DNA of 33,458 bases from a virus. Every line of letters begins with the position of its first letter. The stretch's first letter is position 1. Below are positions 1 through 29,916 of this stretch, one piece after another. The stretch spans positions 1 to 33,458 of IMG/VR virus record IMGVR_UViG_3300020442_003769; one strand, 5' to 3'. A program made the translations under genes and the position numbers. A model generated the notes under the pieces. That model was given only the letters and a program-made list of their open reading frames with translations, did not search any database and was not told where the DNA came from.

Positions 1-920
1 TGTATTCCATGAGCAGCATTTTTTCTATTTTGTAAATCATATAAATTAGTTCCAGGTGAACTAAACCCATAATCAGACCATAGCTCTTTATTAAAAATTG
101 CACTAGAAGGAAAATTCGGCACAATTGAGTTTCTATTAGTTAAGAAATATCCATTATCATATTGCTCATAAAAACTAGGACAATATGATCCGTCTTCTCC
201 ATATGGAAATAAACCCATTGTCTTACCAGCTTCAATGGCACTAAAACCACAATATTCTGTAATAGCTTCATACGCCTTTACAATACCAGCTCGATCTGTT
301 AATATCATCTCATAGTTTTCATCCCAACCAAAAACATGATCTTTAAACTCAAACGGTACGCGGACTGTTCCAATAGTTTGATTTGTTCCCATGTGTTTAT
401 AGATATTTTTAAAATTATCTGGATAAGAAGCTTCTATAACAGATTCTGTTTCAAAACATGCAACGTTACCTACTTGTGGAGAATGTAAATTAGTAAAGCT
501 TCCAGCTCCGTCTACAATAATTACAGTTGCATCCTCGAACCCCGATTTATAAAAAGCACAAGCCGCATGCATTTTATGGTGAATATGTCCAAGATCAATT
601 ACTTGAGGATGATCATCGCCTCTGCTAGGAATACGATCGATCAAACCTATTTTCCGTGCAAAACCAACGTATAAATTATCTCCTGTATAATCTATAGCTG
701 CATCATGTTCAGATAGGTTTACTGTGTGGCTGATTACAAGATAATCTACTCTGTCGACGAATTCTTTAGCTTTTGCAATAGTTGCTAATGGGCCACCATC
801 GTATTTTTGTCTAGAAAAACGTTCTTCTTCAGAAGAGAATACAATTTCACCATTTTTTAAAAGACATCCACCACCGTTATGCCCTCTAGTAATGGCTAAA
901 ATCCATACATCATCACTCAT
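1..920 (-). CDS. NodU/CmcH-type carbamoyltransferase, N-terminal part (runs off the window)
   Basis: This is a partial gene. It starts with ATG at 920 and stays open to the window edge, giving about 306 residues without a stop; the family is usually near 550-600 residues. Family members transfer a carbamoyl group from carbamoyl phosphate to a sugar or other hydroxyl. Visible motifs match the N-terminal Kae1-like domain: GHNGGG at residues 13-18, EEERFSR at 31-37, and HIHHKMHAA at 112-120, whose H114-x3-H118 fits the metal-binding pair. A hydrophobic strand ending in VDGAG follows. The start overlaps the stop of the upstream GT9-like gene by 8 bases, so the two are probably translationally coupled and may act on the same glycan. 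The C-terminal domain lies outside the window, so completeness cannot be judged. Family assignment is strong; the acceptor is unknown. Confidence 0.85.
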   Translation of the reverse strand, partial: MSDDVWILAITRGHNGGGCLLKNGEIVFSSEEERFSRQKYDGGPLATIAKAKEFVDRVDYLVISHTVNLSEHDAAIDYTGDNLYVGFARKIGLIDRIPSRGDDHPQVIDLGHIHHKMHAACAFYKSGFEDATVIIVDGAGSFTNLHSPQVGNVACFETESVIEASYPDNFKNIYKHMGTNQTIGTVRVPFEFKDHVFGWDENYEMILTDRAGIVKAYEAITEYCGFSAIEAGKTMGLFPYGEDGSYCPSFYEQYDNGYFLTNRNSIVPNFPSSAIFNKELWSDYGFSSPGTNLYDLQNRKNAAHGI

Positions 921-1833
921 TCTTTAATCCTTTTTTCACGCTATCAATCACTTGCTTTAGTGTTTTATCATCTAATAACATTAAGTCTTCATTATTTAGG
1001 TCGTCACAAACTTCATAAACTAATCTTATTGGACTATATTTTCTTTCGTTCTTTCCATTATCTATAACAGTAAAATTTGGATTATTTTCATATGTTATAT
1101 TTTCAGGAAATGTAGCACCTATTACTACCGTACATTTTTTATTAAATGCGTTTGCCATATGTTGAGCAACAGAATCACATGCAAGCACATAGTCTGCGGC
1201 ATTTATCACTCCCATCCATCCAAGTAAATCCATATTTTCTGGATACACAACTCCTAGATTTTTTTCTGTTGGAATTTGAAACGAACTCATCATTACTACA
1301 ACAGCTTCTTTATTAAGCTCTTCAATAATTTCTAATACTTGCTTAAGTTCAAAGCTTCTACCACTTCCATCTACAATAAATCTTCCATCTATATGAGCAC
1401 CTTGACCAAATGGTTGAAAAACTACAACTTTATCTTTTTTAAAATTATTCTTAGCTTGTTCTAAGAAATTATATCCTTGAACTTGTTGTTGTCTTGAAAG
1501 AGATAATTCTAATTTTGGAGGAGTACGAACTTCTTCTAAATTATTAATTTGCATATCAAAAGCTTGCATTAAATTACACTTTTGATTAAAATACTCATGC
1601 TGCCTATACGGCTCAGGCGAAAGTATTTTTCTTTCTTTTAAATAATTTTCGAAAAGATTTTTTGTATTTGGAACAAAGCATATATCTCTAAGCTTCTTGG
1701 ATGCTAAAAATAATTCAGCCCAAGCTTCTGTAACTATGATTGTATCTGGATTATTTTCAAGATATGCTTCTAGAGCTGGAATTGCACATAGTACACGTCC
1801 AGCTCCACCGTTAATAAATACGGCAGTCTTCAT
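913..1833 (-). CDS. GT9-like (heptosyltransferase-type) glycosyltransferase
   Basis: The 306-residue protein has the two-domain look of a GT-B glycosyltransferase of the family 9/ADP-heptosyltransferase type. It opens with a short strand and a glycine loop (INGGAGR, then AIPALEAYL), like the family's gGiGD...P start. Near residue 139 is FQPFGQG. The C-terminal donor-site signature NAADYVLACDSVAQHMANAF (about 211-230) carries the Asp-Ser and His of this family and is followed by VVIGATFPEN. ATG at 1833 is preferred over the in-frame GTG at 1839 because a GAGG ribosome site lies five bases upstream of the ATG and overlaps the GTG. It follows the cysteine-rich gene after about 50 bases and overlaps the carbamoyltransferase start by 8. 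Its role is probably sugar transfer to a virion or host-surface glycan; the substrate is inferred only. Confidence 0.75.
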   Translation of the reverse strand: MKTAVFINGGAGRVLCAIPALEAYLENNPDTIIVTEAWAELFLASKKLRDICFVPNTKNLFENYLKERKILSPEPYRQHEYFNQKCNLMQAFDMQINNLEEVRTPPKLELSLSRQQQVQGYNFLEQAKNNFKKDKVVVFQPFGQGAHIDGRFIVDGSGRSFELKQVLEIIEELNKEAVVVMMSSFQIPTEKNLGVVYPENMDLLGWMGVINAADYVLACDSVAQHMANAFNKKCTVVIGATFPENITYENNPNFTVIDNGKNERKYSPIRLVYEVCDDLNNEDLMLLDDKTLKQVIDSVKKGLKNE

Positions 1834-1838
1834 GTTCA

Positions 1839-1842
1839 CCTC
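1839..1842 (-). promoter_or_regulatory. Ribosome binding site choosing the start of the GT9-like gene
   Basis: GAGG on the minus strand lies five bases before ATG 1833. It overlaps the alternative GTG at 1839, which makes that GTG unlikely as the initiator. Confidence 0.6.
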
Positions 1843-1889: not shown

Positions 1890-3107
1890 TTATGCAGTAT
1901 CGTATGTGATTCTAACCGCACCCATATTACCTCGTGCACCACAAATACATCCACCACCCATAGCTTTAGAGGCATGTCCACCAGCGCCTGGCATTTTCAA
2001 GAATGGGCTCGTTGTTTGTGAACAGTTACAGCCACCACATGTACTAGAGGTAAATGGAAAACATACTTGAGAGCAAGACTGAAATAATGGAACTGGAGCA
2101 GCTTGATAATAACCATAGTTATTTGTGTCTAGACAATATGGTCCCCACATTCCAGGTATTTTATACATGAATCCTTTACATGTACAACCAAATGCTTGTG
2201 ATAAACTTGTGACACCGCCCATAACACCACATGTAGAACAACTATTATCATAACAGTGATACTTTGCATTACACCAACATTGTCCACTTCCACCTTGTGC
2301 ATTACCATAACACTGGTTAACCATAAAAGAACCAGGGTTAGTACCTCGAAGCCATATTTGAGACACAGCTTTTTCATTACCTGCTTCAATACGAACATTA
2401 CATAATCCCGGACCTTCAATACAAGTAGGATAACTCCATTCCTGATTCATACAACTCCAGTTAGGGTAATTTTGCGCACTACAGCATATAGCACAACCTG
2501 CGCATATACAATATGAATCACCAGGAGTAACTTCTATTTGCATACTTAAAAAGGCACCAGTACTTCCAAAGGGGTTACCACCACAACAATTTGATCCTGC
2601 CGTAAACGCTCCAGGACCCCATGCATCGAACTGAACTTTTGTGACACCAGCTGGAACAGTAAAATTACAGCAACTACCACAACGATAATAACAACCAGTA
2701 TATCCAGAACGATCAGAACATGATGAACCACAACCACTAGGGTGATTACGACCCTGAGGTCCAGTAAAATCACATACCCAAATTGTTTTTACAGTAGAAG
2801 GCGGTATATTAGCCATTACTCCACCATTACAGTGGATTTCTGTACCATTCATATTAGGAATTTCTTCCCAATATTTTAAACAAAACGGCGATCGATTAAT
2901 CTTATTTTGCAGATCGGCCGCTTTTGGTTCTTTGGCCTGAGCTACAGCAGCGTTACAACAACATAGACAACATAAGCAACAAGCAACTGTTTGTGCCTTT
3001 TGTGTTCTCCGACATTCCTCTCTGGCTGCCTGAGCTGTTCTGGCATCCAGCTGAGTATCAATATAGAGATATTGATCTATTGCGTTATACAGTAATGGAT
3101 TAGTCAC
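1890..3107 (-). CDS. Cysteine-rich adhesin-like virion protein B
   Basis: This 405-residue protein contains 43 cysteines (10.6%). Residues 1-75 look helical and include a dense cluster at 43-51 (CCLCCLCCC). From about 105 the layout copies glycine-rich phage tail-fibre tips: VPAGVTKVQFDAWGPG (151-166), then CCGGNPFGSTGAF and IEVTPGDSYCICAG, a long turn-rich middle, and a GARGNMGAVRITY ending. Cysteines occupy many places where such tips have glycines. It is a diverged paralogue of the protein at 3965-5326, sharing the CCGG, GAF, CxxC and terminal GAVR features. The start is GTG, with AAGGA seven to eight bases upstream, and it overlaps the preceding gene by 8 bases. No signal peptide is apparent. 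The role is inferred to be receptor-contacting tip or tail decoration, perhaps disulfide-stabilised or metal-binding; I recognise no named family. Confidence 0.65.
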   Translation of the reverse strand: MTNPLLYNAIDQYLYIDTQLDARTAQAAREECRRTQKAQTVACCLCCLCCCNAAVAQAKEPKAADLQNKINRSPFCLKYWEEIPNMNGTEIHCNGGVMANIPPSTVKTIWVCDFTGPQGRNHPSGCGSSCSDRSGYTGCYYRCGSCCNFTVPAGVTKVQFDAWGPGAFTAGSNCCGGNPFGSTGAFLSMQIEVTPGDSYCICAGCAICCSAQNYPNWSCMNQEWSYPTCIEGPGLCNVRIEAGNEKAVSQIWLRGTNPGSFMVNQCYGNAQGGSGQCWCNAKYHCYDNSCSTCGVMGGVTSLSQAFGCTCKGFMYKIPGMWGPYCLDTNNYGYYQAAPVPLFQSCSQVCFPFTSSTCGGCNCSQTTSPFLKMPGAGGHASKAMGGGCICGARGNMGAVRITYDTA

Positions 3108-3951
3108 TGTGAATATCCTTATAACTTACTGGATTTTCATGCCCGGTTGCAGGGTCAAATCCATCCGTATCAGAGTTATATACTGGAGACATTCCAGATT
3201 CTTTAGCCGAAGCTACTGCAGTAGCTACTGATATTGGCATTTTTGGTGCCCATGTACCAGTATCATGATCAGTTATATACCAAGGTCTTAGCGGATCAAT
3301 GTTTGTTAAAAATTCATCAACCCTTGTGAGATATGCTGCAGCATCTGAATCAGCTTCTGCGCCCATATCATATTCTTTAAAATAATATGCTATTTTAGCT
3401 TTTCTGTCTTTGGCTATAATTTCGCCTGCAGTATCGTTGCCTTTTGTTACATATTCAAAATCAAATTCCCAAGTATTATCTTCTTTTTCTCTACAATAAA
3501 AATTTAAAAATTCATTAGGATTTGGATTTGTACAGTTTTTCCAAGCAACACCATGACCTTCAACTGTCATTGATTTATCTTCGTATTCTAATGTATTATA
3601 CTGCTCTGCGTCTGCCATAAGGGCCGTTCTAGCATCTCCGCCTGAGTGATTCAACATTAGAAACCATGCTGCCATTGCATGCATGTCATCAGTTTGAGGA
3701 GTTACAGTCATTTCCTTTAATTCAGAAGGATTTAGATCTCCTATAATTTTCATCTGTTGAGCTCGATCTTCTTCAGTAGGATGTGAAACGTCTGTAAAGA
3801 CAACTTCTCCATACATTGGATTAATCCAGCATTTTATTTCATCTGGACCTTTATATTTAAGAGACAACGTGTTGTTATTTACAAAAGTTGGCTCCAATAA
3901 GAAATCTTCGTCGGCCCTTTTGTACGAAAATTCTACGGTAACATTCGGCAT
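3100..3951 (-). CDS. Unknown protein between the two cysteine-rich genes
   Basis: The protein has 283 residues. I do not recognise a family. It is acidic and apparently soluble, with only three cysteines, in sharp contrast to both neighbours. The N-terminus looks beta-rich (NVTVEFSYKRAD), followed by a helical, Met-rich stretch (DDMHAMAAWFLML, about 87-99), an alpha/beta middle and a C-terminus rich in Asp, Ser and Thr. A clear AGGAG precedes the ATG. It lies 13 bases after protein A and overlaps the GTG start of protein B by 8 bases, so the three form one translational unit. By position it could be a chaperone, connector or co-structural partner of the cysteine-rich proteins, but no motif shows this. 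Confidence 0.6.
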   Translation of the reverse strand: MPNVTVEFSYKRADEDFLLEPTFVNNNTLSLKYKGPDEIKCWINPMYGEVVFTDVSHPTEEDRAQQMKIIGDLNPSELKEMTVTPQTDDMHAMAAWFLMLNHSGGDARTALMADAEQYNTLEYEDKSMTVEGHGVAWKNCTNPNPNEFLNFYCREKEDNTWEFDFEYVTKGNDTAGEIIAKDRKAKIAYYFKEYDMGAEADSDAAAYLTRVDEFLTNIDPLRPWYITDHDTGTWAPKMPISVATAVASAKESGMSPVYNSDTDGFDPATGHENPVSYKDIHSD

Positions 3952-3964
3952 TTTTAGTTATCTC

Positions 3965-5326
3965 CTAACAATATTTTACTCTTACGGCGCCAGTTCTACC
4001 TCGGCCACCTGTCATATTAGTATATCCGCCACATGTCATATGTGGATCTGCTCCAAGTCCTGGTATTCTTCTAGTAGAACAGTTATTTGGATTAAATAGA
4101 TATGCAGGGCAACACTGCTCTACACATTTACAACACATACCTTCGCCTCTACAGAAAGGAGAACCAGGAGTACACATCCAATAACAGTTATTTGAACCTT
4201 TACCACCAGGATATAATCCTGGAACTGCAAAACATGATCCTGCTACCATGCCAGCACTTCCGAAAGGACTTTCACCTTCTTGATATGTGGTAGTTCCATT
4301 ATAATGTAAACAGAAATTTGGCTGGTTTTCATCACAGTTAAAAACATGTGGCATATCCATGGAAAATACTGAACTAACTCCCCATTGATTATGTCGACAT
4401 TGAATTAAGTAACAAGTATTATAACTCTCATTACATATCGAACTACCACAACTGTATGCTCCCGATCCGCAAGCACATTGACTATACCAATATTTTTGTT
4501 TTGAATTTCCAGGGTCACATTGCATACACCAATTGTCCCAACCAGAACAGTTACCGCTAGGATAAATAGTACTATTTATGCTACACATATCTTGTTTACA
4601 CCAACCATAGCTTGTTTGACCCATAGATTGACGTCTTCTAGATTTCATTTCTCCGCATGAGACTGCATATGGTGAATTTGCTCTTATACAAAAAGTATTA
4701 CCATTCAAAGTTCCACATATATATGCTGGATCTGGAGTATAAAGTCCCGAACCACATATAGAACAATACGGATTACAACAACATGCGCATCCGCTACAAG
4801 CAATCAAACAAGTATTTGCTGGATCAGTTATAACAAACTGAATAGCCATAAAAGCACCATTTGGTGCAAAGCCAGTTCCACCACAACAATTAACACCTCT
4901 AGAAGGTCCACCAGGAGCTATGATTTCAATACCTAATCTAGTAGTTCCTGCAGGAAGACCACCATTATTAATCTGACAAGAACAACCGCCTGTAAACCTA
5001 TTTCCGTCATTATCCCATACACAAATTGTAGTAGTTGAAGTAGCATAATCATCTAAATCTTTAATAGATGCATATCCACGACAATGACACATATGGTTAT
5101 AAAATGTATAATAATCTGAGTCTGGAGTAAATCCATAATTTTGTACGGCATTTTGTATGTATGAATCAGCACTATCGATAAGTGCATCGTAACACGCAAT
5201 TAGAGGGTCATACGCAATTTGAGCAGCAGCGGCAGAATCTCTACATTTTGTTTTTTCTTTTAAGAGATTTCTTTTAATCTCTACCTTTTTAGCTATCGCA
5301 TTAAACTGTAATACGTCTACTGCCAT
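3965..5326 (-). CDS. Cysteine-rich adhesin-like virion protein A
   Basis: This 453-residue protein contains 45 cysteines (about 10%). Residues 1-75 are predicted helical (Lys/Glu then Ala-rich) and probably form an attachment or oligomerisation part. From about 96 it follows the glycine-rich fibre-tip plan: LPAGTTRLGIEIIAPGG (124-140), NCCGGTGFAPNGAF, a strand pair ending in CLIACSGCACCC, then a long Cys/Gly/Asn/Ser/Tyr-rich middle. CC or CxC pairs recur to the end (GMCCKCVEQCC near 396-406), and the terminus reads GGRGRTGAVRVKYC. The ending and the CCGG/GAF block match protein B. It begins two bases after the giant spike gene, with GGGAG seven bases before the ATG, so expression with the spike is likely. 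The likely role is a host-contact tip or decoration; whether the cysteines form disulfides or bind metal cannot be read from sequence. Confidence 0.68.
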   Translation of the reverse strand: MAVDVLQFNAIAKKVEIKRNLLKEKTKCRDSAAAAQIAYDPLIACYDALIDSADSYIQNAVQNYGFTPDSDYYTFYNHMCHCRGYASIKDLDDYATSTTTICVWDNDGNRFTGGCSCQINNGGLPAGTTRLGIEIIAPGGPSRGVNCCGGTGFAPNGAFMAIQFVITDPANTCLIACSGCACCCNPYCSICGSGLYTPDPAYICGTLNGNTFCIRANSPYAVSCGEMKSRRRQSMGQTSYGWCKQDMCSINSTIYPSGNCSGWDNWCMQCDPGNSKQKYWYSQCACGSGAYSCGSSICNESYNTCYLIQCRHNQWGVSSVFSMDMPHVFNCDENQPNFCLHYNGTTTYQEGESPFGSAGMVAGSCFAVPGLYPGGKGSNNCYWMCTPGSPFCRGEGMCCKCVEQCCPAYLFNPNNCSTRRIPGLGADPHMTCGGYTNMTGGRGRTGAVRVKYC

Positions 5327-5328
5327 CG

Positions 5329-8300
5329 TTATACTCCCGTTGTCGTGACGGTTGATATCGTTCCGTCACTGTTATATACAATTGCTACATCTTGTGTCAC
5401 GGTAACGTCTCCAATAGTAGTTGTTTCTCTATAGCTATTTATCTGACCAGAATTACTGTCATATGTAATATTTGAATAACCAAAATTACCTGAAGTAAAT
5501 GACAGCGGCCTCAGTCCACCAGAATCTCTAGCAGAATCTATAAAGAAAACATTTGAATCAGACCCTACATAAGTTGCAGGCTGTCTGGTTGTATTATCAG
5601 AGTCATAGGCGCCAGTTAAGAAATTTTGTGCTATGATTGTAGTTTGAGTTTCAACAAACGTTTTTGTTGCTTTTTCCGTTGGAACAGCAAGGTTTGAATT
5701 ACCAGACATTGTTCCGTCTGATGAGAATTCGTTAATTGATTCACCAATTTGTGCACCAATTGAACCAAGTCTCAAGCTAGTCAAACCAGAGAGATCAAAT
5801 GCTGATGCATCTAATGTTGCTCGTCCAGTAGCCTGATCGATTCTGAAATAATTACCAACTCTAAAGTTACCATCTTGGTCAGTCGAAATATAATAAACTC
5901 GACCTGGAGCTGTCTCAATAACTTCGTTACCTTGAGCAGCAGGTTGAGTTGGAGTTCCAGGATAATTTGTTGTAGTTATCCCGCCAGTACCCACACTTAA
6001 GAAATCGTGACCGGTTAATCGTACTTGTGAATAATTAGTTCTAATTGTTACAGCAGCATCATCAGCTGAAGCATTAGTTTCTAATTTTTGTTGTGACAGC
6101 GTCAATGTTGCTTGTCCGCCACCGTATCCGCTTACAGTAGAAATCACATAAGCTCTATATCCGCCGGCGCTATCTGTATCATCAGCAAATGATATAGACT
6201 GACCAGGTTTTGGCTCAGCTGTTAATCCGTCGACTGTAACAATATATCCATATTGACCTCTAACAAAATTACTATTTACAAGATTTGCACTTACTGCGCC
6301 TTGAGTAATTGTTTCACCGCCAACAAATCCAGGGAATGTTGTATTTTCAACATAGATTTTATCTTCAGATGGTTGTGTATTAATTACAGTAGCACTTGGT
6401 GCTTCAGCATTCCAATGAGCAGAGTCAAAGTAATCTCCTGAGTCCATCAATCTGATTTGACCACCAGAAGTATAAACGTTATATGACTGAGCATTTATAA
6501 ATGGAGGATTAACAATATTAATTTGTCCTCTCATTTGTGAAGCAGAGTCAGCACTATCATAGTTATAATACAATGTTGATGGAGTTGTAGGTCCAACTTC
6601 GAAGATCAGTCCGTCTACAATACTATCAAGAGTTGAATCACCATCCAGTGAGTTTCTACTATTTAAAATTCCAGTTGTATATTCATCTTGAAAATTACTT
6701 GAATCCCAGTTAGTAGATGTTGATAGATAAAAACGACCACCTGCCATAGCAAAAGGAGTAGTACCAACTGTTCTAGGAACGAACCTATATCTTGAACCTC
6801 TGTAAAGCGTAAGTGTTGGTTTTATATCACTGAATCCAACCGCTGATTGTCCACCGACTGTTGCTAAAAAGCTTGGACCAGGAGAGTTATTTCCAGTTGG
6901 ATCATTCTGAACAAAAATCTTTTCATTTTCAGCTTCTCTTGCATACAAAGTAGTAGCAGCAGTTTGAGCACCACTATCAAATGTAGCCCAAATGTTATTA
7001 ATTTGTGTCATACCGCCAACACTTTGAATATAGTGTGGAGCATATGAATCAACGTTAGCAGCTGTTGTAACAGTTATTCTAGCAGGATTCTGTCGAGCGA
7101 TATCTGTAATCGTTGCTGTAACTGTGTTTCTTCCACCAGCTAATTGCGTATCAATCCCTGTTGATCTAGCTGAATCGGTGTAAGGAATAAAGTTAGAAGA
7201 GTCAGTGACTGTTACCCAATAACTATCTGCTGTAAATAATGAGGCCCATGTTGCAGGCGCCACACCTGAGATAGAAATTTTCTCACCTGTTAATAAACCG
7301 TGATTAGGCGAATGGAAAGACACGTTAGCAGCACGTGTCATTCTATTAATACTGTTATCGTTTGCTGCACCAGTAATTGTTGATCCAGCAGAAAACTCAG
7401 TTCCACCTGTAAGTGTATTACCATCGTAGTGAAGCGATTGACCTCTAATATTACCTGTTATAGCAGTTTCGTTTGAATCAAATCCTTCAGCAACCGCACC
7501 ATATGTACCATAAGAGTTATTACAGTTTAGAGCTCGAATTTTACCACCACTTGAAGTTACAAGACCAAAATCACAATAATAAGTAAAACAAGAAACGATT
7601 TCTGATTTACCATTTCTTCGTACCCAGAAACCTGCACCACCGTCATGAACCTGAGTAAATGTATGGAAAACCATTGAACCATTATTATAAGCATTATTAT
7701 TTAAGCCACCATCAATAACAGCACCAATACCACCACTTGAGAAGGCAGTTGATTCTTTAATGTATGGTGATTTTGTAATAACTGCGTTAGGATCTAATCT
7801 AAAATAAACACCACCGATTGTTGCGTATTCAATATCATGTGGATTACCACCAGCAGAATCTAGTGCAAAACCAGTCAATCCAGAAAATTTAAATTCCTCA
7901 ATAAGTGTTCCGTTATTAACAAAGAACATTGTTTTATTTGAATCACCAGCAGCTGGTGCAATTTCAGTATTCCTCTGACCATCACCTCTAAGTGTTATGT
8001 CAGCGCCTACCGTCATAGGTAAGCTTTCTCGATAAGAACCTTCTTTAACATAAATTGTAGCTGGACCTGTTACGTTATCTAACGCAAATTTAACTGATCC
8101 CCAAGCTGTATCAATTGTTTGACCAAGAGCAGAATCTGCATTACCACCTTTTGCAACATAGTAAACTTTTTCAGCTTTACCTGGATATTGCCAACTATAA
8201 GAAACACCATCTGTTGTTCCTAAAAATTTGCCTCTCTCTGCAGCACTAATTGCAGGTAAAACAGAACCACCGCCAGCAGCAAATAATTCCCACTTACCGT

Positions 8301-9528
8301 CTGTAATTTCTTGTCCAAAATTACCTGAAGCTGTAAAGTCTTGTAATGCTATATAAGAACTTGTACTATATTGTACGATGTCGTTAATTGCGTACGTTCC
8401 AGTACTATCATATCCACCTGATCGATAATTAACGCCATTTGTTAATTGTGTCCAATTAGCTGAGTCTAAAGCAAACGTAACAGCTGATGTATGTGAGGTT
8501 CCAGTTTTAATGTGTGATTTATTATTATGGACAACAATATCACCCCGATAATAAAGCGTATTACCTGCCCAATTACCACGGGCATTTGTACCTTCAGCGA
8601 TTCTTTCCCATTGAGTTGTAGATGCATCAGGAGTATTCCCTAAAGTTTGAACTTTAGCTCTATATGAGCCATTACCATATGTTACAACTTGGTTAACATA
8701 ATATGTAGTACCAGCATTATAAGCTCCTTGAGAAGATAATCCATCTCCTATAAGTTGCCATAATGTTTGATCAGAATCTGGACGAACTCCTAATACATTA
8801 TCTCTTTTTGATTTGTATGTTCGTGCACCAAATGTTGCAATGTCATTTCTATAATATTTTGTAGAAGCACTATATGAGTCTCTCCACTCTTGACCATCAA
8901 TTATAGAATTCCAGTTATTTGCTACGTTTGGAGAATCTCCTATAGAAACATCAGTATTAGCTATATAAGAGTTAGGACCCCATTTAACAACTTGACCTGG
9001 TTTATATGTTTGAGTTGAATCGTATGCACTATCAAAAGATAGTCCATCAGCAAAAACATCCCACTTTAATGCTACTAGGGGGTTTTGACCAATTGTAGGA
9101 TCTTCTTTTGCAATATAAGATTTTGGACCATATTTAACAATATCTGATTTTTGATATTGGGTTGAAGCGTCATATACTCCTTCGTATTGAATTCCATCGT
9201 TAAATGTAGAATAAGATGCATGAGGAGGGCGTTGGCCCTGTACACTATTTGCTGTTGTGATATAAACAATACCACCATATGAAAATCCATCGCCAACATT
9301 ATATGTTGTGTCAGAATCATATGCACCTTCAAACTTAAAGCCTTCTACCATTAAGTCCCAATATAGGGAAGCTGTCTGTGGGATATTACCTGAAGTTTTT
9401 AAACCATATTTGTATACGTAAAGGTTGCCACCATACTTGACAACATCATTAGCTTCGTAAGTAGTGGAATTTGACCACTCCCCACGATACTCAAATCGTA
9501 ATTTACCGAGATCTATAATTGTTGCCAT
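5329..9528 (-). CDS. Giant tail spike/fibre: eight N-terminal modules, beta-helix, cupredoxin-like relic
   Basis: The protein has 1399 residues. Residues 10-417 hold eight modules of about 50 residues with the pattern (G)xYxxxTxYxxxDxVxYGxxxYxA...W..xxxG, reminiscent of small aromatic carbohydrate-binding modules. From about 455, YYVAKGGNADSALG begins a pectate-lyase-like right-handed beta-helix (IYVKEGSYRESLP, then many short Gly/Asn-rich turns to about 700). Residues 900-1006 resemble the cupredoxin-like domain of the fibre protein at 28333-29916, but with the copper ligands replaced. The C-terminal part contains NYSQVRLTGHDFLSVGTGG and further fibre-like repeats. Asp-Ser dipeptides are frequent. 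A GGAG lies ten bases before the ATG. It is probably a trimeric tail spike or long fibre that binds a surface polysaccharide; lyase activity is possible but no catalytic residues were identified. Confidence 0.82.
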   Translation of the reverse strand: MATIIDLGKLRFEYRGEWSNSTTYEANDVVKYGGNLYVYKYGLKTSGNIPQTASLYWDLMVEGFKFEGAYDSDTTYNVGDGFSYGGIVYITTANSVQGQRPPHASYSTFNDGIQYEGVYDASTQYQKSDIVKYGPKSYIAKEDPTIGQNPLVALKWDVFADGLSFDSAYDSTQTYKPGQVVKWGPNSYIANTDVSIGDSPNVANNWNSIIDGQEWRDSYSASTKYYRNDIATFGARTYKSKRDNVLGVRPDSDQTLWQLIGDGLSSQGAYNAGTTYYVNQVVTYGNGSYRAKVQTLGNTPDASTTQWERIAEGTNARGNWAGNTLYYRGDIVVHNNKSHIKTGTSHTSAVTFALDSANWTQLTNGVNYRSGGYDSTGTYAINDIVQYSTSSYIALQDFTASGNFGQEITDGKWELFAAGGGSVLPAISAAERGKFLGTTDGVSYSWQYPGKAEKVYYVAKGGNADSALGQTIDTAWGSVKFALDNVTGPATIYVKEGSYRESLPMTVGADITLRGDGQRNTEIAPAAGDSNKTMFFVNNGTLIEEFKFSGLTGFALDSAGGNPHDIEYATIGGVYFRLDPNAVITKSPYIKESTAFSSGGIGAVIDGGLNNNAYNNGSMVFHTFTQVHDGGAGFWVRRNGKSEIVSCFTYYCDFGLVTSSGGKIRALNCNNSYGTYGAVAEGFDSNETAITGNIRGQSLHYDGNTLTGGTEFSAGSTITGAANDNSINRMTRAANVSFHSPNHGLLTGEKISISGVAPATWASLFTADSYWVTVTDSSNFIPYTDSARSTGIDTQLAGGRNTVTATITDIARQNPARITVTTAANVDSYAPHYIQSVGGMTQINNIWATFDSGAQTAATTLYAREAENEKIFVQNDPTGNNSPGPSFLATVGGQSAVGFSDIKPTLTLYRGSRYRFVPRTVGTTPFAMAGGRFYLSTSTNWDSSNFQDEYTTGILNSRNSLDGDSTLDSIVDGLIFEVGPTTPSTLYYNYDSADSASQMRGQINIVNPPFINAQSYNVYTSGGQIRLMDSGDYFDSAHWNAEAPSATVINTQPSEDKIYVENTTFPGFVGGETITQGAVSANLVNSNFVRGQYGYIVTVDGLTAEPKPGQSISFADDTDSAGGYRAYVISTVSGYGGGQATLTLSQQKLETNASADDAAVTIRTNYSQVRLTGHDFLSVGTGGITTTNYPGTPTQPAAQGNEVIETAPGRVYYISTDQDGNFRVGNYFRIDQATGRATLDASAFDLSGLTSLRLGSIGAQIGESINEFSSDGTMSGNSNLAVPTEKATKTFVETQTTIIAQNFLTGAYDSDNTTRQPATYVGSDSNVFFIDSARDSGGLRPLSFTSGNFGYSNITYDSNSGQINSYRETTTIGDVTVTQDVAIVYNSDGTISTVTTTGV
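8278..9501 (-). repeat. Eight tandem aromatic modules inside the spike gene
   Basis: The encoded units are about 50 residues each and start at residues near 11, 64, 113, 163, 213, 264, 314 and 366. Each keeps Tyr-x(6-7)-Tyr, then Asp-x-Val-x-Tyr/Trp-Gly, a Ser-Tyr-x-Ala strand and a closing Trp before Asp-Gly. The units are diverged at the DNA level, so the array is old. Confidence 0.8.
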
Positions 9529-13961: not shown

Positions 13962-14879
13962 TTATTTGTTCTTATTTATATCTTTAATCCACTCCATTTT
14001 CTTGTTTATGAAATGATAAAGTTTTGCCTTAGGATCCATATGTTTTGGTTCAGTTACTAGCTCATCAACGAGCCAATGCCATTCTTTTGCCATGTATTGA
14101 ATTTGTATTTCTCTTGCTTTAACCCAATATGAAAATACTGTTTCGTTATCGTAATTAAATACTCGTTGAATATTCTTTGGATACATAGAAAACTCATCAT
14201 GCTTTACATCAGTCATAAGTTTTATAATATATTCAAAGTCTCTAAAATAATCTAATTGCTTAATTACATCAGACGATGCAGCCATGATTCCTGTATTAAA
14301 TACATCATTCTCAGGATCATACCCTTCTTCCATAAGAAGAGCATGAGTATTCCAATATTTAGTTGCAGGATTACGAATACAAAGATTGTAATCTTCTGAT
14401 TTCATGACTTTACCACGTATTGCTAATCTATTAGATTCAGCAACCGCTAACATTTTATCTACGTTGTGTGATGCAAAAATACAATCACTAGTGTTAGGTA
14501 CAACATCAAAGTCCAAGTAGCAAACGTAATTATATTCATCAGCTAAGTCCCTCATTATTCTATGTTTATAAAAGTTTACTATATCATATTCTGAGATCTC
14601 TGTAAACCTTTTTTTAATATCATTAAAGAATTTTTTATATGTACTATCATATTGAAATAGTATATAGTCGGCACCAATGTCATTCGCGTATTGTTTTTGC
14701 CTTTGTGTAACAAGCTCTGCATTATTAAGTAATGCTAATTTTGTTTGTTTACTTTTATCAGTTGTAACTTGTTCACCATTTTCCCACCACCCAGGATTAT
14801 CTAGACGATCTTCAGGGATATCAATGAATACACTGAATACTACTTTATTTCCCAATGACTGTATACCTTTGAAAATCAC
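13962..14879 (-). CDS. GT-A-type glycosyltransferase-like protein
   Basis: This protein of about 305 residues has features of a nucleotide-sugar-dependent glycosyltransferase of GT8-like shape. Visible are a first strand VVFSVFID, an acceptor/donor helix region, and CYLDFDVVP around residues 120-128 containing a DxD motif (D123, D125) expected to bind metal and the sugar nucleotide. NTGIMAAS at 195-202 resembles the NxG segment of the family. The start is uncertain. GTG at 14879 gives a 35-base overlap with the methyltransferase gene, and TTG at 14855 is the other candidate; neither has a strong ribosome site and no ATG lies nearby. The last codons contain the late promoter of the next gene. 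The substrate is unknown; adjacent fibre genes suggest virion or host-surface glycans. Confidence 0.65.
   Translation of the reverse strand: MIFKGIQSLGNKVVFSVFIDIPEDRLDNPGWWENGEQVTTDKSKQTKLALLNNAELVTQRQKQYANDIGADYILFQYDSTYKKFFNDIKKRFTEISEYDIVNFYKHRIMRDLADEYNYVCYLDFDVVPNTSDCIFASHNVDKMLAVAESNRLAIRGKVMKSEDYNLCIRNPATKYWNTHALLMEEGYDPENDVFNTGIMAASSDVIKQLDYFRDFEYIIKLMTDVKHDEFSMYPKNIQRVFNYDNETVFSYWVKAREIQIQYMAKEWHWLVDELVTEPKHMDPKAKLYHFINKKMEWIKDINKNK
13973..13980 (-). promoter_or_regulatory. T4-type late promoter TATAAATA
   Basis: A perfect element on the minus strand is embedded in the last codons of the glycosyltransferase gene, 27 bases before the ATG of the Ig-like gene at 13946. It would start a transcript for the fibre block. 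Confidence 0.7.
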
Positions 14880-15468
14880 CTAGATCTAAAGTATCTATGT
14901 CAGCGTACCATTCTAAATTTAAACTCTCTGCAAAGAGCTCGGCTGAAGGATAACAATTAATATGAGAATCTAAATCTGTATAATTGTTTGATTGAAAAGC
15001 CACCCAACAATCTTTATTTTTTCTCTCAATAATAGAACAAATGTCTTTTTGTTCCATATGCTCACAAGAGGTGTTTACAATCCCTGTATATTGTGTTATA
15101 ATAAAAGAGTCACTTATGTTGAGGGTGGAGAATGCTATATTATAATCTCCAAATATTTCGTATCCAAACTCCTGACACATAGGATCCATATCAGTAGATT
15201 CTATATTCATCTGAGGTTCAGGCCATTGTTTACGTAGTTGATATGCCATCATTCCATACCAACCACCCAATACTAATAATTTACCGGCGTCATGATTATA
15301 TAATTCATAAAACTTTTTTGCGAGATGTTCTTTTCCAATCCAATGATTGTGATCCATAGAATGAGATAAATCTTTAATTCGATAAAGATCATCTACACCG
15401 TACATAGATTCATTATATACTTTCTCGCTTAGTTTTATAGTACGGTATAATATCTCCGAATTGTACAT
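14845..15468 (-). CDS. SAM-dependent methyltransferase-like protein
   Basis: The 207-residue protein carries class I SAM-methyltransferase features. Motif I is KLLVLGGWYGMMAYQL (63-78), the glycine-rich loop after a hydrophobic strand. Motif II is NIESTDMDP (88-96), whose acidic residue would contact the ribose. A strand GIVNTSCEHM (129-138) sits where the motif IV Asn/Asp-Pro segment usually lies. ATG at 15468 is chosen because GAGGA lies five bases upstream. It overlaps the preceding glycosyltransferase gene by 56 bases, the longest overlap in the window. With glycosyltransferase-like genes on both sides, O-methylation of a sugar is the simplest guess; the acceptor is unproven. Confidence 0.68.
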   Translation of the reverse strand: MYNSEILYRTIKLSEKVYNESMYGVDDLYRIKDLSHSMDHNHWIGKEHLAKKFYELYNHDAGKLLVLGGWYGMMAYQLRKQWPEPQMNIESTDMDPMCQEFGYEIFGDYNIAFSTLNISDSFIITQYTGIVNTSCEHMEQKDICSIIERKNKDCWVAFQSNNYTDLDSHINCYPSAELFAESLNLEWYADIDTLDLGDFQRYTVIGK

Positions 15469-16108
15469 CTAATTCCTCAAACGATACAATAGCTGCATCT
15501 TTTATATTCTTTTCGTGTTTCATAGATCGTACGAAGTCACGTTTAAATGTTTTCATCTTTACGTCTTCATGAGCCAGGAATCTATCCATACCTCCTGAAT
15601 ATTTTCTCATAAAGTAATCTCGTAAACCATGATTATTAAAATGATTCCATATTTCAAAATGACTAAGTGCTTTCCATGCCATTACTGAACTATGTATAGT
15701 TACATCATAACTAGATAATCTACCATATCTTTTTTTATCTTTTTTCCATGGCGCGGGACATACATGTAACGTATCCCAGTCATGATCGGTAAATCGTGTA
15801 AAAATACAGTCTTGCACAAACGTGTCTAAATCTAAGTAAATATTATAATGGCCTTCTCTTACATAAGGCATAGAAGGATCAAAGAGGCGTAGTTTATTCC
15901 ATACGCCTTTTAATGTAGGATCTGTTTTTGCAGGAATAACTTCGATACCAGATGTTAATCCTTCCGGATCATCAGTATAACAATAAAATTTAAACCAGCC
16001 GGCTAAATAATATCCTCTGGCGTGATAACTAATTTCTCTAAAAAGTCTATTAACAAATCTTGAATCGTACTTGCTACCAAACTTAACTGTGATTATGTTG
16101 AATATCAT
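15413..16108 (-). CDS. Glycosyltransferase-like protein with DLD motif
   Basis: The 231-residue protein (from ATG 16108) begins IFNIITVKFGSKYDSRFVNR, typical of a GT-A first strand. CYTDDPEGL near 43-51 and WNKLRLFDP near 70-78 match a glycosyltransferase-like family found in phages. NIYLDLDTFV (89-98) supplies the DxD metal site (D93, D95). An upstream in-frame TTG at 16120 would add four residues and is less likely. No strong ribosome site precedes the ATG, but it overlaps the coiled-coil gene by 26 bases, consistent with coupling. It forms a cassette with the methyltransferase and the second glycosyltransferase. Donor and acceptor sugars are unknown. Confidence 0.68.
   Translation of the reverse strand: MIFNIITVKFGSKYDSRFVNRLFREISYHARGYYLAGWFKFYCYTDDPEGLTSGIEVIPAKTDPTLKGVWNKLRLFDPSMPYVREGHYNIYLDLDTFVQDCIFTRFTDHDWDTLHVCPAPWKKDKKRYGRLSSYDVTIHSSVMAWKALSHFEIWNHFNNHGLRDYFMRKYSGGMDRFLAHEDVKMKTFKRDFVRSMKHEKNIKDAAIVSFEELDVQFGDIIPYYKTKRESI
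15474..15478 (-). promoter_or_regulatory. Ribosome binding site of the methyltransferase gene
   Basis: GAGGA on the minus strand ends five bases before ATG 15468. It supports the long start with a 56-base overlap over the non-overlapping ATG at 15405, which has no well-placed site. Confidence 0.6.
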
Positions 16109-16982
16109 TGTATACTGCAAATAATTCAGGAATGCTTTTTGCTTTCCTTACTTTCATTTTAATTTCACGGTCTTGATTATTTTTAACTTCGGGTAAATTA
16201 AAAATAGCTAATTTAGTTTTAAAAACCATATCTTCATTTTTAAAATTATCTATAATATATTCAGCAACTTTTTCAGGCGTATATCTTATAGGAGCAGAAG
16301 GCTTATTAAATTTACTTAATAAATCTGTTTTAACTTCTTGTTGAATAATATTAATCTGACTTTTTTTATACGCATCAGCTTCTTCATATCTTTGTTTTAC
16401 TTGTTCATCAAGTTCATCTTGAAGAATTGATAATTGCTTTTCTCTATACGTATCAACATCAGCAAATCCCTCAGCGATACGTCTTTCCACTTGTTCGTCA
16501 ACTTCAGCCTGTAATATCTTTAGTTGTTCTTCTTTGTATGCTTCGACTTCTTTATATTGCTTATCTATAGCAGCTTGTATACCCTTATATCCTTCTTGTA
16601 CTCTGCGCTCTACTTGTGCGTCAGCTTCTTGTAATTGTTGTTCTCTGTATTTCTCAAATATTTTATAACGCTCTTCATCTTGTTTGTCTAAATCTTTCTG
16701 AGCATTTATAACCCATTCGTCAAACATCACTTTTGCATGATTAAGAATATTATCGTTTTTAGCCTGTGTAAGATTTTTATAATATTTTTGTGTATTGTCT
16801 TGAATATCTTCAATAGAATATTCTTCAATCAAGTCAAGAAAATCTTGATTATCATAATTCAATTCTACAATGTAATGAGATAATGTTTTTGAATCTGTTT
16901 TTTGTTTATATAAAACTTCTATTGTTTTTTCATTACGATCAACAAATTTTACAGACTCTATTTTATTTGAAAACAGTGCCAT
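16083..16982 (-). CDS. Repetitive coiled-coil protein of unknown function
   Basis: The protein has 299 residues. A small N-terminal domain (about 1-70, Ile/Lys-rich strands and helices) is followed by a long charged helix at about 75-223. Within it a unit like YxEQQLxxLQAEVDEQVERR recurs from about 112, 149, 179 and 205, spaced roughly 26-37 residues. A C-terminal globular part (about 231-299, YTPEKVAEYIIDNF and KAKSIPELFAVYNDI) closes it. AAAGG precedes the ATG. It overlaps the first glycosyltransferase gene. Such a rod could be a fibre, whisker or assembly scaffold; I recognise no family. It is very Lys/Glu/Gln-rich, unlike the Asp/Ser-rich fibres around it. Confidence 0.6.
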   Translation of the reverse strand: MALFSNKIESVKFVDRNEKTIEVLYKQKTDSKTLSHYIVELNYDNQDFLDLIEEYSIEDIQDNTQKYYKNLTQAKNDNILNHAKVMFDEWVINAQKDLDKQDEERYKIFEKYREQQLQEADAQVERRVQEGYKGIQAAIDKQYKEVEAYKEEQLKILQAEVDEQVERRIAEGFADVDTYREKQLSILQDELDEQVKQRYEEADAYKKSQINIIQQEVKTDLLSKFNKPSAPIRYTPEKVAEYIIDNFKNEDMVFKTKLAIFNLPEVKNNQDREIKMKVRKAKSIPELFAVYNDIQHNHS

Positions 16983-26273: not shown

Positions 26274-26281
26274 TATTTATA
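26274..26281 (-). promoter_or_regulatory. T4-type late promoter TATAAATA
   Basis: A perfect element on the minus strand overlaps the last codons of the protease gene, 24 bases before the ATG at 26250. It would drive the short fibre, gp8 and the giant baseplate gene. Confidence 0.7.
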
Positions 26282-28328
26282 CTACTTTATCGAAGTGTCC
26301 TGCGGTTATCGCTATAGGACCTTCCATTTTAAAATCGGCTGGATATGGAGTATTTATAGGTATCGTGGCAGCATATAATACTCTACGATCCGCACCGTGC
26401 AATGCATTATAATCACTTGACCAATTACCATTAGCTGTTGTAACTTCAGTTCCCTCATACATGTCAGAAGAAGGTTGTACTTCTACACTTGTTTCAATCC
26501 AATTACGTAGATTTTCATAAGTCCAACTTCTATTATATTGCATTACGACTGCTATAAATCCAGCACCTACTGGACATGCAGCACTGGTTCCACTAAATCG
26601 TGTATCTCGACATGCAGATATAGCAGATAAATCTGCATACTCATCATCTAGTCTTTCTACATCAACGCCATAAGTTGAATCTGGACATGCTGCTAATGTT
26701 CCATCTCCTGGAGCAAAAAAGTCAATTGCGTTTCCACAATCGCTATAGTTTACTTTTCTATCTTGATCATAACTATTTGTCATGTTATCGTTTAAACAGC
26801 CAACGTTAATAGCTGGAAATTTAACAGTAGTATTTCCTTGAAACGTTTGACTTACGGTTTTTCCAATATGTTGTGGAAATCCTCTACGATTTGTAGATCC
26901 TGTTACATTATAACCAAATTCAGTAAACGTATCTTGATAGAATGTGTTTGTATTATTATTTGAAATACGGTTATCATAATTAGCATGATCAGGATTATAT
27001 TGTGGCTGATTACTATTTCCAGCTGCACATACCATAATAACACCTGCTTGAGTTAATTCATCTCCAGCTTGCGTCATACTATTGTCATACATTTCTGATT
27101 TCCAACGGCCAAGATCGCCTTGTACACCTAACCAGCTAATATAGTTTGGCTCATTAGACGTTCCACCATATGATGCAGCGCCATCACTTCTAAAGTAATA
27201 ATAAGATCCGCTTTTACTGGATGATCTAAATCCCCAGCTATTTGAACTAATTGTTGGATCTCTTGTTCCAAAAATAGGATTTATTGGTTTATTTTGATGG
27301 AATATTTTTTGTACATCAAAACCTATTTCAAAGCTACCAACGTTATAAACAGAACCGTATAAATTTAAATGCCACTTATTACAATTGTATGCCCATCCAT
27401 GTGTACGTCCATATATTAAACTAGCGCATTGAGTACCGTGATCTGCATCATATGCTAATGTTGATGGAGAACCATGTACATTATTTCGTGTATAGTTTGT
27501 TGATACTAATATATTTCCAAATGATGCAAGAGAAACACTACGTTGAGTTGAATCTCTCCACCAATTTTGAGCTGCAGATTCAGTTGGTACAACTGTTCCA
27601 TCCCATCTTGTTTCTAATCTATTATCGGGATCTGCGTTAAACCAATCTGGATCAATATAATAAGGACCATCAAGAACTACATCTAATACATCACAATATC
27701 CTGATCGATCTAAAACATTTCCAGGCTTATAATCAAGTGGATTTACTTGGTTGTTTACGCCTTTATTGATAAATTCAGTATGAGCAATCCATGTACCATT
27801 ATCTGCGCATATAACATCAACATGTTCACCAGCACCTTGTTGTTGTACTTTAGCAGATATTGCAGTATATTCATCAGTGGTTGACGTTTTCCACGGATTT
27901 TGTTTTGTCTGCATCCTATATAATGCAGTAGTTCTATTTTGAGTTGGCTCTGCATTTGAAAACTCTGTTCTAATAGATTGAAATTCATCGGTCCAAGCTT
28001 GATAGTTATTATATGGAGTTTGCCATCTATCTTTCTTTTCTCCCCATACATCAGCTTTAACTTCATCAGAAGGAGGCATATATGTATCAGGATAACGATT
28101 AAAACTTTCGTTAATTATCTTAACTCGATCATCAGCTTGTAATACAGTTACTTCATCTTCTGTTAAAGAGAATTCACCACGTACATCACTGTGTTCTCTT
28201 GCATCAGTAAGATCAACAGCCCTGTCTGGTATTGTTTCAGGAGTTGAATCTGATGACATAAGCTCTGCGCTTATTTCATCGTATTGTTCTTTTGTATATG
28301 TAGTTACTACGTAATACTTTTCGCTCAT
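26277..28328 (-). CDS. Subtilisin-family (S8) serine protease with I9-like prodomain
   Basis: The 683-residue protein shows a complete subtilase set: Asp176 in VDVICADNGTWIAHTEF, His297 in YDADHGTQCAS, oxyanion-hole Asn438 in VCAAGNSN, and Ser582 in SGTSAACPVGAGF. An N-terminal part (about 1-80, YYVVTTYTKEQYDEI then FSLTEDEVTVLQADDRVKII) resembles the I9 propeptide inhibitor that folds and then blocks subtilases. Residues 80-165 and the tail beyond 600 (to FKMEGPIAITAGHFDKVV) are extra to the core. No signal peptide is seen. It lies four bases after the cupredoxin-bearing fibre gene, with only a weak ribosome site. Embedded among baseplate genes, it may be virion-borne, processing a tail protein or cutting a host surface protein; the target is unknown. 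Confidence 0.88.
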   Translation of the reverse strand: MSEKYYVVTTYTKEQYDEISAELMSSDSTPETIPDRAVDLTDAREHSDVRGEFSLTEDEVTVLQADDRVKIINESFNRYPDTYMPPSDEVKADVWGEKKDRWQTPYNNYQAWTDEFQSIRTEFSNAEPTQNRTTALYRMQTKQNPWKTSTTDEYTAISAKVQQQGAGEHVDVICADNGTWIAHTEFINKGVNNQVNPLDYKPGNVLDRSGYCDVLDVVLDGPYYIDPDWFNADPDNRLETRWDGTVVPTESAAQNWWRDSTQRSVSLASFGNILVSTNYTRNNVHGSPSTLAYDADHGTQCASLIYGRTHGWAYNCNKWHLNLYGSVYNVGSFEIGFDVQKIFHQNKPINPIFGTRDPTISSNSWGFRSSSKSGSYYYFRSDGAASYGGTSNEPNYISWLGVQGDLGRWKSEMYDNSMTQAGDELTQAGVIMVCAAGNSNQPQYNPDHANYDNRISNNNTNTFYQDTFTEFGYNVTGSTNRRGFPQHIGKTVSQTFQGNTTVKFPAINVGCLNDNMTNSYDQDRKVNYSDCGNAIDFFAPGDGTLAACPDSTYGVDVERLDDEYADLSAISACRDTRFSGTSAACPVGAGFIAVVMQYNRSWTYENLRNWIETSVEVQPSSDMYEGTEVTTANGNWSSDYNALHGADRRVLYAATIPINTPYPADFKMEGPIAITAGHFDKVV

Positions 28329-28332
28329 TTTA

Positions 28333-29916
28333 TCACACTATGTTTATTGTGTTACCCATACCTGAATGTACAGTACATTGATAATACAATGTAGATGGTG
28401 CACCCATCGGTACTTTAAATACAACTGTTCCTACAGCTTGTGTATTTCCTGTTATACCATCAGCATATGCAGATCCACCATTACTTACACGTATTTGAAA
28501 TGGATGGCCAGAAGCATTTACTACAAAGTAATATGTTTCTCCTCTTCGTAAATAAAGAACAGGATCACTAGTAGTAGAAGTAAACCAATGATTCTCGTGA
28601 TCAGAGAATGTATAATTACTTGATCCACTATTTCCAACATTAAATATATGAGAACCTTTTGACATAGGATGCCATGCACTATGCTCATAAATTTCCATTT
28701 GATTAGTTGTTGTATTGTAAATAATTTCACCGTTAGATGCTGATAATGCATTACGCTCACCAGTTGACATACTACCAACTCTAAATCCACCACCTGCACC
28801 GCTGTTTTGACTTACAGTAACAGAAGCGCTTGTAACCATATTAATATTAGTGGATGAAGTTAATGTTGGAGTACCGGCAGCTTGAGATGTAATATTATCA
28901 ACTACTAGTCCGGTAGAATTAAAATATCCTACGTCTGTACCACCAACTCGAATATCGATTTGATCATCAGTACTTGCGTGTAAACTCGTATCTCCGTCGG
29001 CATCTAATACTAACTCAGTACCATTCATATCAATAGAAGATCCTTGAGAAACGTATGTATTAGCATCAACCGAATAAGTTCCAGATCCATTTGTTTTCAT
29101 GAATCCTGCACTTGGAAAGTCTCCATCTACAACTACATCAGCATGAGAAGTTTCACTCGTTAGATAAGATTGTAAGTCACTTATCTGAGATTCAGTAATT
29201 GATAAAGCAGCTTGATGAGCTGTTACATCACCCTCAGTTACAGTATAACTTGTCAAATAACTTGATAAATCTGGTGGGGTATATGTGTATACACCTGTAC
29301 CATTATTATATGATAAGTTAGCTGTTCCTGCAGATGCAACGGACACACTAAAGTCTGCATAAGTCAGACCTCCGCCTCCACCGCCACCACTTACATCAGT
29401 AGCAGCTATAAACATTCCTTGTGCTGAATCCCATTTTAATATTTTATTATTTGAGATACCAGACATATTAACATTAGATAATTCGCCGATACTATCAACG
29501 CCTTCTCTTGCTTGTACATATGCACTATCAATGAGCGCAATAGTTTTGGCCGAGTCAATACCAGTTCCAAGATCTGCATTATTAGCGAGTCTTACCCATG
29601 CTCCGCCATGTGCAAAATATCCTGCTCCTGTATTATGAACGTGAGCAAACATACCGTGATATGTCGTAGCATTTGGAAGAGCGCCTTCAGAATCCCACAT
29701 ATTGGCATAGTAGATTTTTTTAGACCCGAAATCTACGTCTGAATCGCCTGCAAGTGTATTAATATGTGTCGGAATAACTTGTGCGTTATCTAATGCTTGT
29801 GCAATAGAAGTGACAGCCGCTGAATCAAGGTCAGCGTTCTGTAATGTGGTAAAGTTGGCATCGAGTTCGACGTGGGTCAATGCCGTACCTTTAGTATTTC
29901 GTAATGTGATTGCCAT
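28333..29916 (-). CDS. Fibre-like virion protein with C-terminal cupredoxin-like domain
   Basis: The protein has 527 residues. Residues 1-30 (LRNTKGTALTHVELDANFTT) are a fibre-type start. FAHVHNTGAGYFAHGGAWVRL (about 90-110) is a module seen in tail proteins of marine phages. A glycine run lies at 177-183, one copy of the YNNGTGVYTYT motif at about 203-213, and fibre repeats follow. Residues 424-527 form a cupredoxin-like domain: LYLRRGETYYFVV, then GHPFQIRV with His471, and PSTLYYQCTVHSGMGNTINI with Cys514, His517 and Met520. These four match type 1 copper ligands (His, Cys, His, Met). AGAGG precedes the ATG. It is likely a baseplate-attached fibre; copper binding is inferred. Confidence 0.8.
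   Translation of the reverse strand: MAITLRNTKGTALTHVELDANFTTLQNADLDSAAVTSIAQALDNAQVIPTHINTLAGDSDVDFGSKKIYYANMWDSEGALPNATTYHGMFAHVHNTGAGYFAHGGAWVRLANNADLGTGIDSAKTIALIDSAYVQAREGVDSIGELSNVNMSGISNNKILKWDSAQGMFIAATDVSGGGGGGGLTYADFSVSVASAGTANLSYNNGTGVYTYTPPDLSSYLTSYTVTEGDVTAHQAALSITESQISDLQSYLTSETSHADVVVDGDFPSAGFMKTNGSGTYSVDANTYVSQGSSIDMNGTELVLDADGDTSLHASTDDQIDIRVGGTDVGYFNSTGLVVDNITSQAAGTPTLTSSTNINMVTSASVTVSQNSGAGGGFRVGSMSTGERNALSASNGEIIYNTTTNQMEIYEHSAWHPMSKGSHIFNVGNSGSSNYTFSDHENHWFTSTTSDPVLYLRRGETYYFVVNASGHPFQIRVSNGGSAYADGITGNTQAVGTVVFKVPMGAPSTLYYQCTVHSGMGNTINIV

Follow-up and report, generated by a model that had tools for sequence, protein, structure and literature searches.

A conserved pair of cysteine-rich proteins predicted to form tail-fibre tips in aquatic T4-like phages

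The stretch of viral DNA analysed here, referred to as the window, is the whole 33,458 nucleotides of IMG/VR record IMGVR_UViG_3300020442_003769. On its minus strand an ORF with an ATG start (3965–5326) encodes a protein of 453 residues (protein A), of which 45, or 9.9%, are cysteines, in agreement with the count given in a preliminary description of this DNA. The other 22 predicted proteins of the window, leaving out A and its paralogue B, together hold 48 cysteines in 10,113 residues (0.47%); the cysteine density of A is approximately 20-fold that of the rest of the window, and the binomial probability of its 45 cysteines at the window background is ~1e-43. A genome-wide cysteine bias is ruled out both by this low background and by the presence of cysteine-poor Gly_rich_2 proteins within the same genomes, e.g. 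a glycine-rich protein of 485 residues with two cysteines in Prochlorococcus phage P-SSM2. On the basis of its cysteine count, homologues and fold, A is predicted to be a cysteine-rich tail-fibre tip, the first (upstream) copy of a pair.

The N-terminal part of A (residues 1–95; 5042–5326, minus strand) is predicted to be helical, with helices at residues 5–34 and 41–63 in an AlphaFold model, and carries the family consensus motif DVLxYNAxxE; by analogy with the tail fibre of phage Pam3, it is a candidate docking or trimerisation stem. The distal part (residues 96–453; 3968–5041, minus strand) is assigned TNF-like strands followed by a glycine/cysteine-rich domain, on the evidence of a structural match and of profile-level similarity to Gly_rich_2 domains. 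This distal part corresponds exactly to the interval singled out in the preliminary description, and the segments listed there (PAGTTRLGIEI, CCGGTGFAPNGAF, GRGRTGAVRV) are all present, although that interval omits the N-terminal helical part and also B. Within the distal part, the CSGCACCC motif (residues 177–184; 4775–4798, minus strand) corresponds to a family consensus of CxxCxxCC, the best-conserved cysteine cluster, with column cysteine frequencies of 0.92–0.96. A C-terminal strand is predicted at residues 447–452 (3971–3988, minus strand), where the family has a conserved GxxGxVxVxY consensus.

Protein B (1890–3107, minus strand; 405 residues, 43 cysteines) is a paralogue of A, with 39% identity across the core, and its sequence, model and position in the family tree mark it as the second copy of the predicted cysteine-rich fibre tip. 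It contains a CCLCCLCCC run (residues 43–51; 2955–2981, minus strand), i.e. seven cysteines in nine residues, located between two predicted stem helices; its nearest relatives (loci L005 and L006) carry related cysteine clusters in a similar position of their B-type copies. Between A and B lies a gene for a protein of 283 residues (3100–3951, minus strand). Directly upstream of A is a tail-fibre-like protein of 1399 residues with three cysteines (5329–9528, minus strand), and profile matches and locus comparison identify, downstream of B, a glycosyltransferase-9-like protein of the xKAFFINGGAGRV family (phrog_8954; 913–1839, minus strand) and a Nol/NodU-like carbamoyltransferase that is incomplete at the contig end (3–920, minus strand). 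Elsewhere in the window, inspection by eye suggests a serine peptidase in the tail module (26277–28328, minus strand; 683 residues, with subtilase-like motifs DHGTQ and GTSAACP), glycosyltransferases and a methyltransferase-like protein among three consecutive proteins of the tail cluster (13962–16120, minus strand), and a resemblance to a cupredoxin-like C-terminal domain in a tail protein (28333–29916, minus strand) ending FQIRVSN...YYQCTVHSGMGNTINIV.

Sequence searches with A alone gave no match in phage records, even at an E value of 10, and none in viral contigs. The family was reached via B, which matches PSSM2_306 of P-SSM2, and via P-SSM2 itself, where PSSM2_304 and PSSM2_306 each contain 36 cysteines in ~355 residues. 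A six-member profile search of viral contigs yielded 71 loci, and the family so assembled comprises 125 distinct homologous ORFs in ~65 aquatic phage contigs, all of them with cysteine contents of 6–12%. Homologues found with a cysteine-free search pattern still contain 6.6–11.4% cysteine, a similar range, which shows that the search itself did not create the enrichment. More divergent relatives, with 8–12% cysteine, occupy the same locus in S-SSM7, Sf-FS3, S-CAM1 and S-CAM3 as three tandem copies. Searches of cellular genomes gave 12 pattern matches, none of which was a relative, and the family is absent from the three cyanophages with published virion proteomes that were checked (S-SM1, S-PM2 and Syn9). 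The phage represented by the window does not have to infect a cyanobacterium, given that psbA was found in two of 32 records searched and that the baseplate gene of the window is nearest to that of phage C48C1 and next to those of Methylophilales phages.

The profile of phrog_35878 is matched by A (7.7e-6), by B (8.7e-32) and by all 92 of the aligned relatives, and the family sequences fall within PHROGs 35878 and 4205, both of which are annotated as of unknown function; the relatives in P-SSM2, S-SSM7 and S-CAM1 are annotated as hypothetical. The earlier remark that no described family accommodates A thus holds with respect to function, but not with respect to grouping, since the sequences do belong to these PHROGs. 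Literature searches for cysteine-rich cyanophage fibres returned nothing relevant and no description of the family. The fold and the plan of a fibre with its chaperone are already known; the cysteine-loaded version, as a conserved pair, is undescribed in anything we found.

Gene order around the pair is conserved, running from a tail fibre through A, a small gene and B to a glycosyltransferase-like gene and a carbamoyltransferase. The cysteine-rich genes nearly always occur as two copies flanking one small gene, and in 57 of 58 two-copy loci a single ORF of 212–288 residues lies between them; where the flanking sequence is long enough, most loci continue with the FFINGGxGRV glycosyltransferase-like gene and the carbamoyltransferase. 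P-SSM2 has the same order as the window, with PSSM2_305 separating PSSM2_304 from PSSM2_306, the glycosyltransferase-like and carbamoyltransferase genes next, and PSSM2_301 (annotated as phage tail fiber-like) at the position of the 1399-residue gene. In the family tree, A clusters with the first copies and B with the second copies of their nearest relatives, implying that the pair has been inherited as a pair. Annotated cysteine dioxygenase genes are present a few genes downstream of the cysteine-rich fibre genes in S-CAM1 and S-CAM3 (L081 12805–13158; L105 12019–12375), and a glutaredoxin lies ~8 kb downstream of the pair as nrdC in P-SSM2 and as a similar ORF in AG-345-F15 (L001 17554–17802; L002 14273–14530), possibly just the usual T4-like nrdC.

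The middle gene of the window is a probable tail-fibre assembly chaperone, at a distance of two homology steps. Its product has no phrog_9740 match of its own, nor a PF16778 match above cut-off, but is homologous to the L005 and L006 proteins (3e-26 and 1e-23, respectively), the latter of which matches phrog_9740, as do 33 of 40 middle-gene proteins overall; in S-SSM7 and Sf-FS3, the members of phrog_9740 in turn carry PF16778 (Phage_tail_APC) above cut-off (1.1e-9 and 5.3e-11). Pfam matches of single members of the middle-gene family were judged to be chance, and a sequence-profile search of solved structures with the middle gene gave chance matches alone.

AlphaFold models of both A (mean pLDDT 67.5, moderate, with central cysteine-rich loops below 50) and B (mean pLDDT 80.5) comprise an N-terminal helical stem, including a helix at residues 4–38 of B, and a β-rich distal part. 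The Pam3 fibre tops the structural match lists of both proteins: A aligns with 7ypx with a VIA-align Z of 10.7 (rmsd 3.4 over 178 residues, model residues 93–453) and with 7yfw with a Z of 10.5, and B aligns with 7yfw with a Z of 11.4 (rmsd 3.4 over 195 residues), whereas unrelated entries score below a Z of 5. Both models also match the Bxb1 tail tip (Z 10.0 for A) and ALK/LTK glycine-rich domains (Z 6–9 for A). Among the predicted viral structures of BFVD, the relatives in P-SSM2 and S-CAM3 come first, followed mostly by glycine-rich-domain and collagen-like proteins; a sequence-profile search of solved structures returned only chance coiled-coil matches.

At the level of sequence, neither A nor B matches PF21722 (Gly_rich_2) at E ≤ 1, and both are below the Pfam gathering cut-off, but seven of 92 relatives match it at E ≤ 0.01 and those in S-CAM1 and S-SSM7 do so above the cut-off. 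Comparison by hhalign of the family with cysteine-poor Gly_rich_2 domains gave a probability of 94.2% over 52 columns, with column-shuffled controls at ≤0.2%. The glycine-rich fibre-tip plan put forward in the preliminary description is therefore supported by the monomer models, by the profile comparison and by those members that carry PF21722 themselves. The lattice is not glycine-dominated, with 16% glycine in the domain compared with 25–31% in several cysteine-poor Gly_rich_2 proteins of the same genomes; over the reading frames compared, such cysteine-poor members contain 0–2% cysteine and ~14–38% glycine.

Some 13 alignment columns are cysteine in >80% of family members, and the remaining cysteine columns are variable. 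Where cysteine columns are occupied by another residue, it is Lys, Arg, Asn, Gln or Thr, with glycine depleted (0.46–0.55-fold in two alignments); glycine columns exchange with Ser, Asn and Ala, and are depleted in cysteine (0.39–0.61-fold in two alignments). These exchange patterns imply that cysteine is not a stand-in for glycine, contrary to the earlier suggestion that cysteine occupies many of the places where glycine would be expected. Of 125 members, 65 have an even number of cysteines, and the even share is 48–52% across counts. A Fisher correlation analysis of cysteine columns gave many hits that were confounded by ancestry and fell to chance level in a tree-aware version, in which, with other residues as controls, the variable cysteine columns displayed no correlated gains or losses beyond chance. 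Parity and lack of co-change together make obligate one-to-one disulfides unlikely for the variable cysteines, the invariant ones lying outside the reach of this argument. The ten most conserved cysteines are lost without a fixed partner, and the four of the CxxCxxCC motif go missing one at a time or in changing sets while the protein itself is retained. Spacings of the CC and CxxC type are slightly over-represented. Lineage-specific insertions keep 9–10% cysteine, as if it were the density of cysteine that is maintained.

The closest known system is the Pam3 fibre protein gp24, which has a helical N-terminal stem, TNF-like strands and a distal glycine-rich domain, as predicted for A and B, and which co-expression and cryo-EM show to fold with the aid of the chaperone gp25; its lattice strands are ~5 Å apart (PMC9608196). 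A chaperone-family gene adjoins the fibre gene in Pam3 and probably here too, the window's own link to that family being distant. In contrast to the two paralogues here, with ~16% glycine and 11% cysteine, Pam3 has a single fibre protein with a domain of 39% glycine, and cysteine is not mentioned in its description (PMC9608196). PF21722 proteins and the ALK/LTK glycine-rich domain share with A and B the fold and an N-terminal strand pair (VPaGVTxxxFxxWGaGG ... GAYA ... VTxGxxYtL), but A and B fall below the Pfam cut-off and cysteine-poor PF21722 members contain only 0–2% cysteine. PSSM2_304/306, S-SSM7 114–116, S-CAM1 224–226 and S-CAM3 156–158 belong to the same family or are close relatives at the same locus, with 8–12% cysteine; S-SSM7, Sf-FS3, S-CAM1 and S-CAM3 differ in having three tandem copies rather than two around a middle gene. 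The S16-type long-tail-fibre adhesin gp38, which to our knowledge is not cysteine-rich, likewise presents a glycine-rich receptor-binding lattice at the fibre tip; it is not among the structural matches listed for A and B, a list that does not exclude likeness. It differs in its β-helix middle domain and in attaching to gp37 through short N-terminal helices (PMC9608196). Raised cysteine in phage structural proteins has a precedent in Agrobacterium phage Milano, whose virion is disulfide bonded, but there 2.1% cysteine is spread over the structural proteins (PMC10811340), compared with ~10% confined to the fibre tips here and 0.47% in the other window proteins.

The computation supports the homology, gene order, fold and cysteine density of the family and the kind of position that its cysteines occupy. 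Taken with the chaperone-domain members of the middle-gene family, the models make it very probable that A is a fibre tip that binds receptors. We infer that it would be the distal end of a trimeric tail fibre built in the simplified manner of Pam3 gp24, in which a helical N-terminal stem would attach to the virion, TNF-like strands would follow, and the distal glycine-rich lattice would touch the host; A would be made together with B, and its folding would be aided by the chaperone-family protein encoded between them. The family lattice appears to have lost glycine (~16% rather than ~25% or more) and gained ~11% cysteine at otherwise polar, probably exposed positions. Strands spaced ~5 Å apart are within disulfide reach, and the cysteines would most likely staple adjacent lattice strands via redundant disulfides, set when virions exit the reducing cell, a redox state that we infer. 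If disulfide partners can swap, individual pairs need not be conserved, which would account for the parity and absence of co-change, for the partner-free losses and for the cysteine-dense insertions. We give the proposal as a whole, a Pam3-type fibre tip with redundant disulfide stapling, about an even chance; redundant stapling is the most likely role of the cysteines, with metal binding as the main rival.

In the metal-binding alternative, which we consider rather unlikely, the fibre tip is the same, but CxxCxxCC, CC and nearby cysteines serve as thiolate or cluster ligands of Zn, Cu or Fe, the metal stabilising the tip or being presented to host uptake receptors in a thiol variant of the Ferrojan horse idea of iron in marine phage tails. 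That the best-conserved cysteines are CxxCxxCC, CC and single cysteines in the core is consistent with this, odd cysteine numbers and partner-free losses suit multi-ligand sites better than pairs, and iron held by HxH in phage tail fibres is an existing proposal. However, histidines are few (1.6% of domain residues) and HxH shows no enrichment, the protein persists when motif cysteines are lost singly or variously, and cysteine is dense even in lineage-specific loops, beyond the needs of a defined site.

Exposed free thiols at the host surface, through which the tip would join to host surface proteins covalently or by thiol-disulfide exchange, are a more doubtful explanation. Exchange of cysteine columns with polar, probably exposed residues is compatible with such a role, as is the abundance of cysteine in low-occupancy, lineage-specific loops, the variable distal loops of Pam3 gp24 being the proposed receptor contact. 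Free thiols would, however, tend to oxidise in water, and a variable receptor contact leaves the conserved core cysteines unexplained. It is similarly improbable that A and B are late-infection cysteine-rich proteins with another role rather than virion components; the absence of the family from the virion-proteome phages checked would fit this, but the stem-strand-lattice fold is that of tail-fibre tips, and the adjoining tail-fibre and chaperone-family genes are kept across loci. Least probable of all is that cysteine, chemically idle, merely takes the place of glycine as a small lattice residue: although glycine and cysteine combined (16% + 11%) approach the glycine content of cysteine-poor glycine-rich proteins in the same genomes (~25–31%), the exchange patterns of the two sets of columns argue against it.

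Redundant disulfide stapling of a fibre tip remains our first choice. Because virions are assembled in a cytoplasm that is reducing, families with ~10% cysteine are unexpected in them; Milano, with 2%, is the strongest precedent that we found. More tentatively, the working surface of the fibre tip in these aquatic T4-like phages may be a dense thiol lattice that either carries metal or is set by oxidation-reduction after lysis, in which case metal or redox chemistry at the host surface would govern adsorption. The analysis provides a predicted function, that of a receptor-binding fibre with its chaperone, for genes annotated as hypothetical in isolates and for PHROGs of unknown function, and the isolates P-SSM2, S-SSM7 and S-CAM1, which carry the family or its relatives, are open to direct testing. 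If the cysteines act in adhesion, phage attachment would be tied to the redox or metal chemistry of natural waters.
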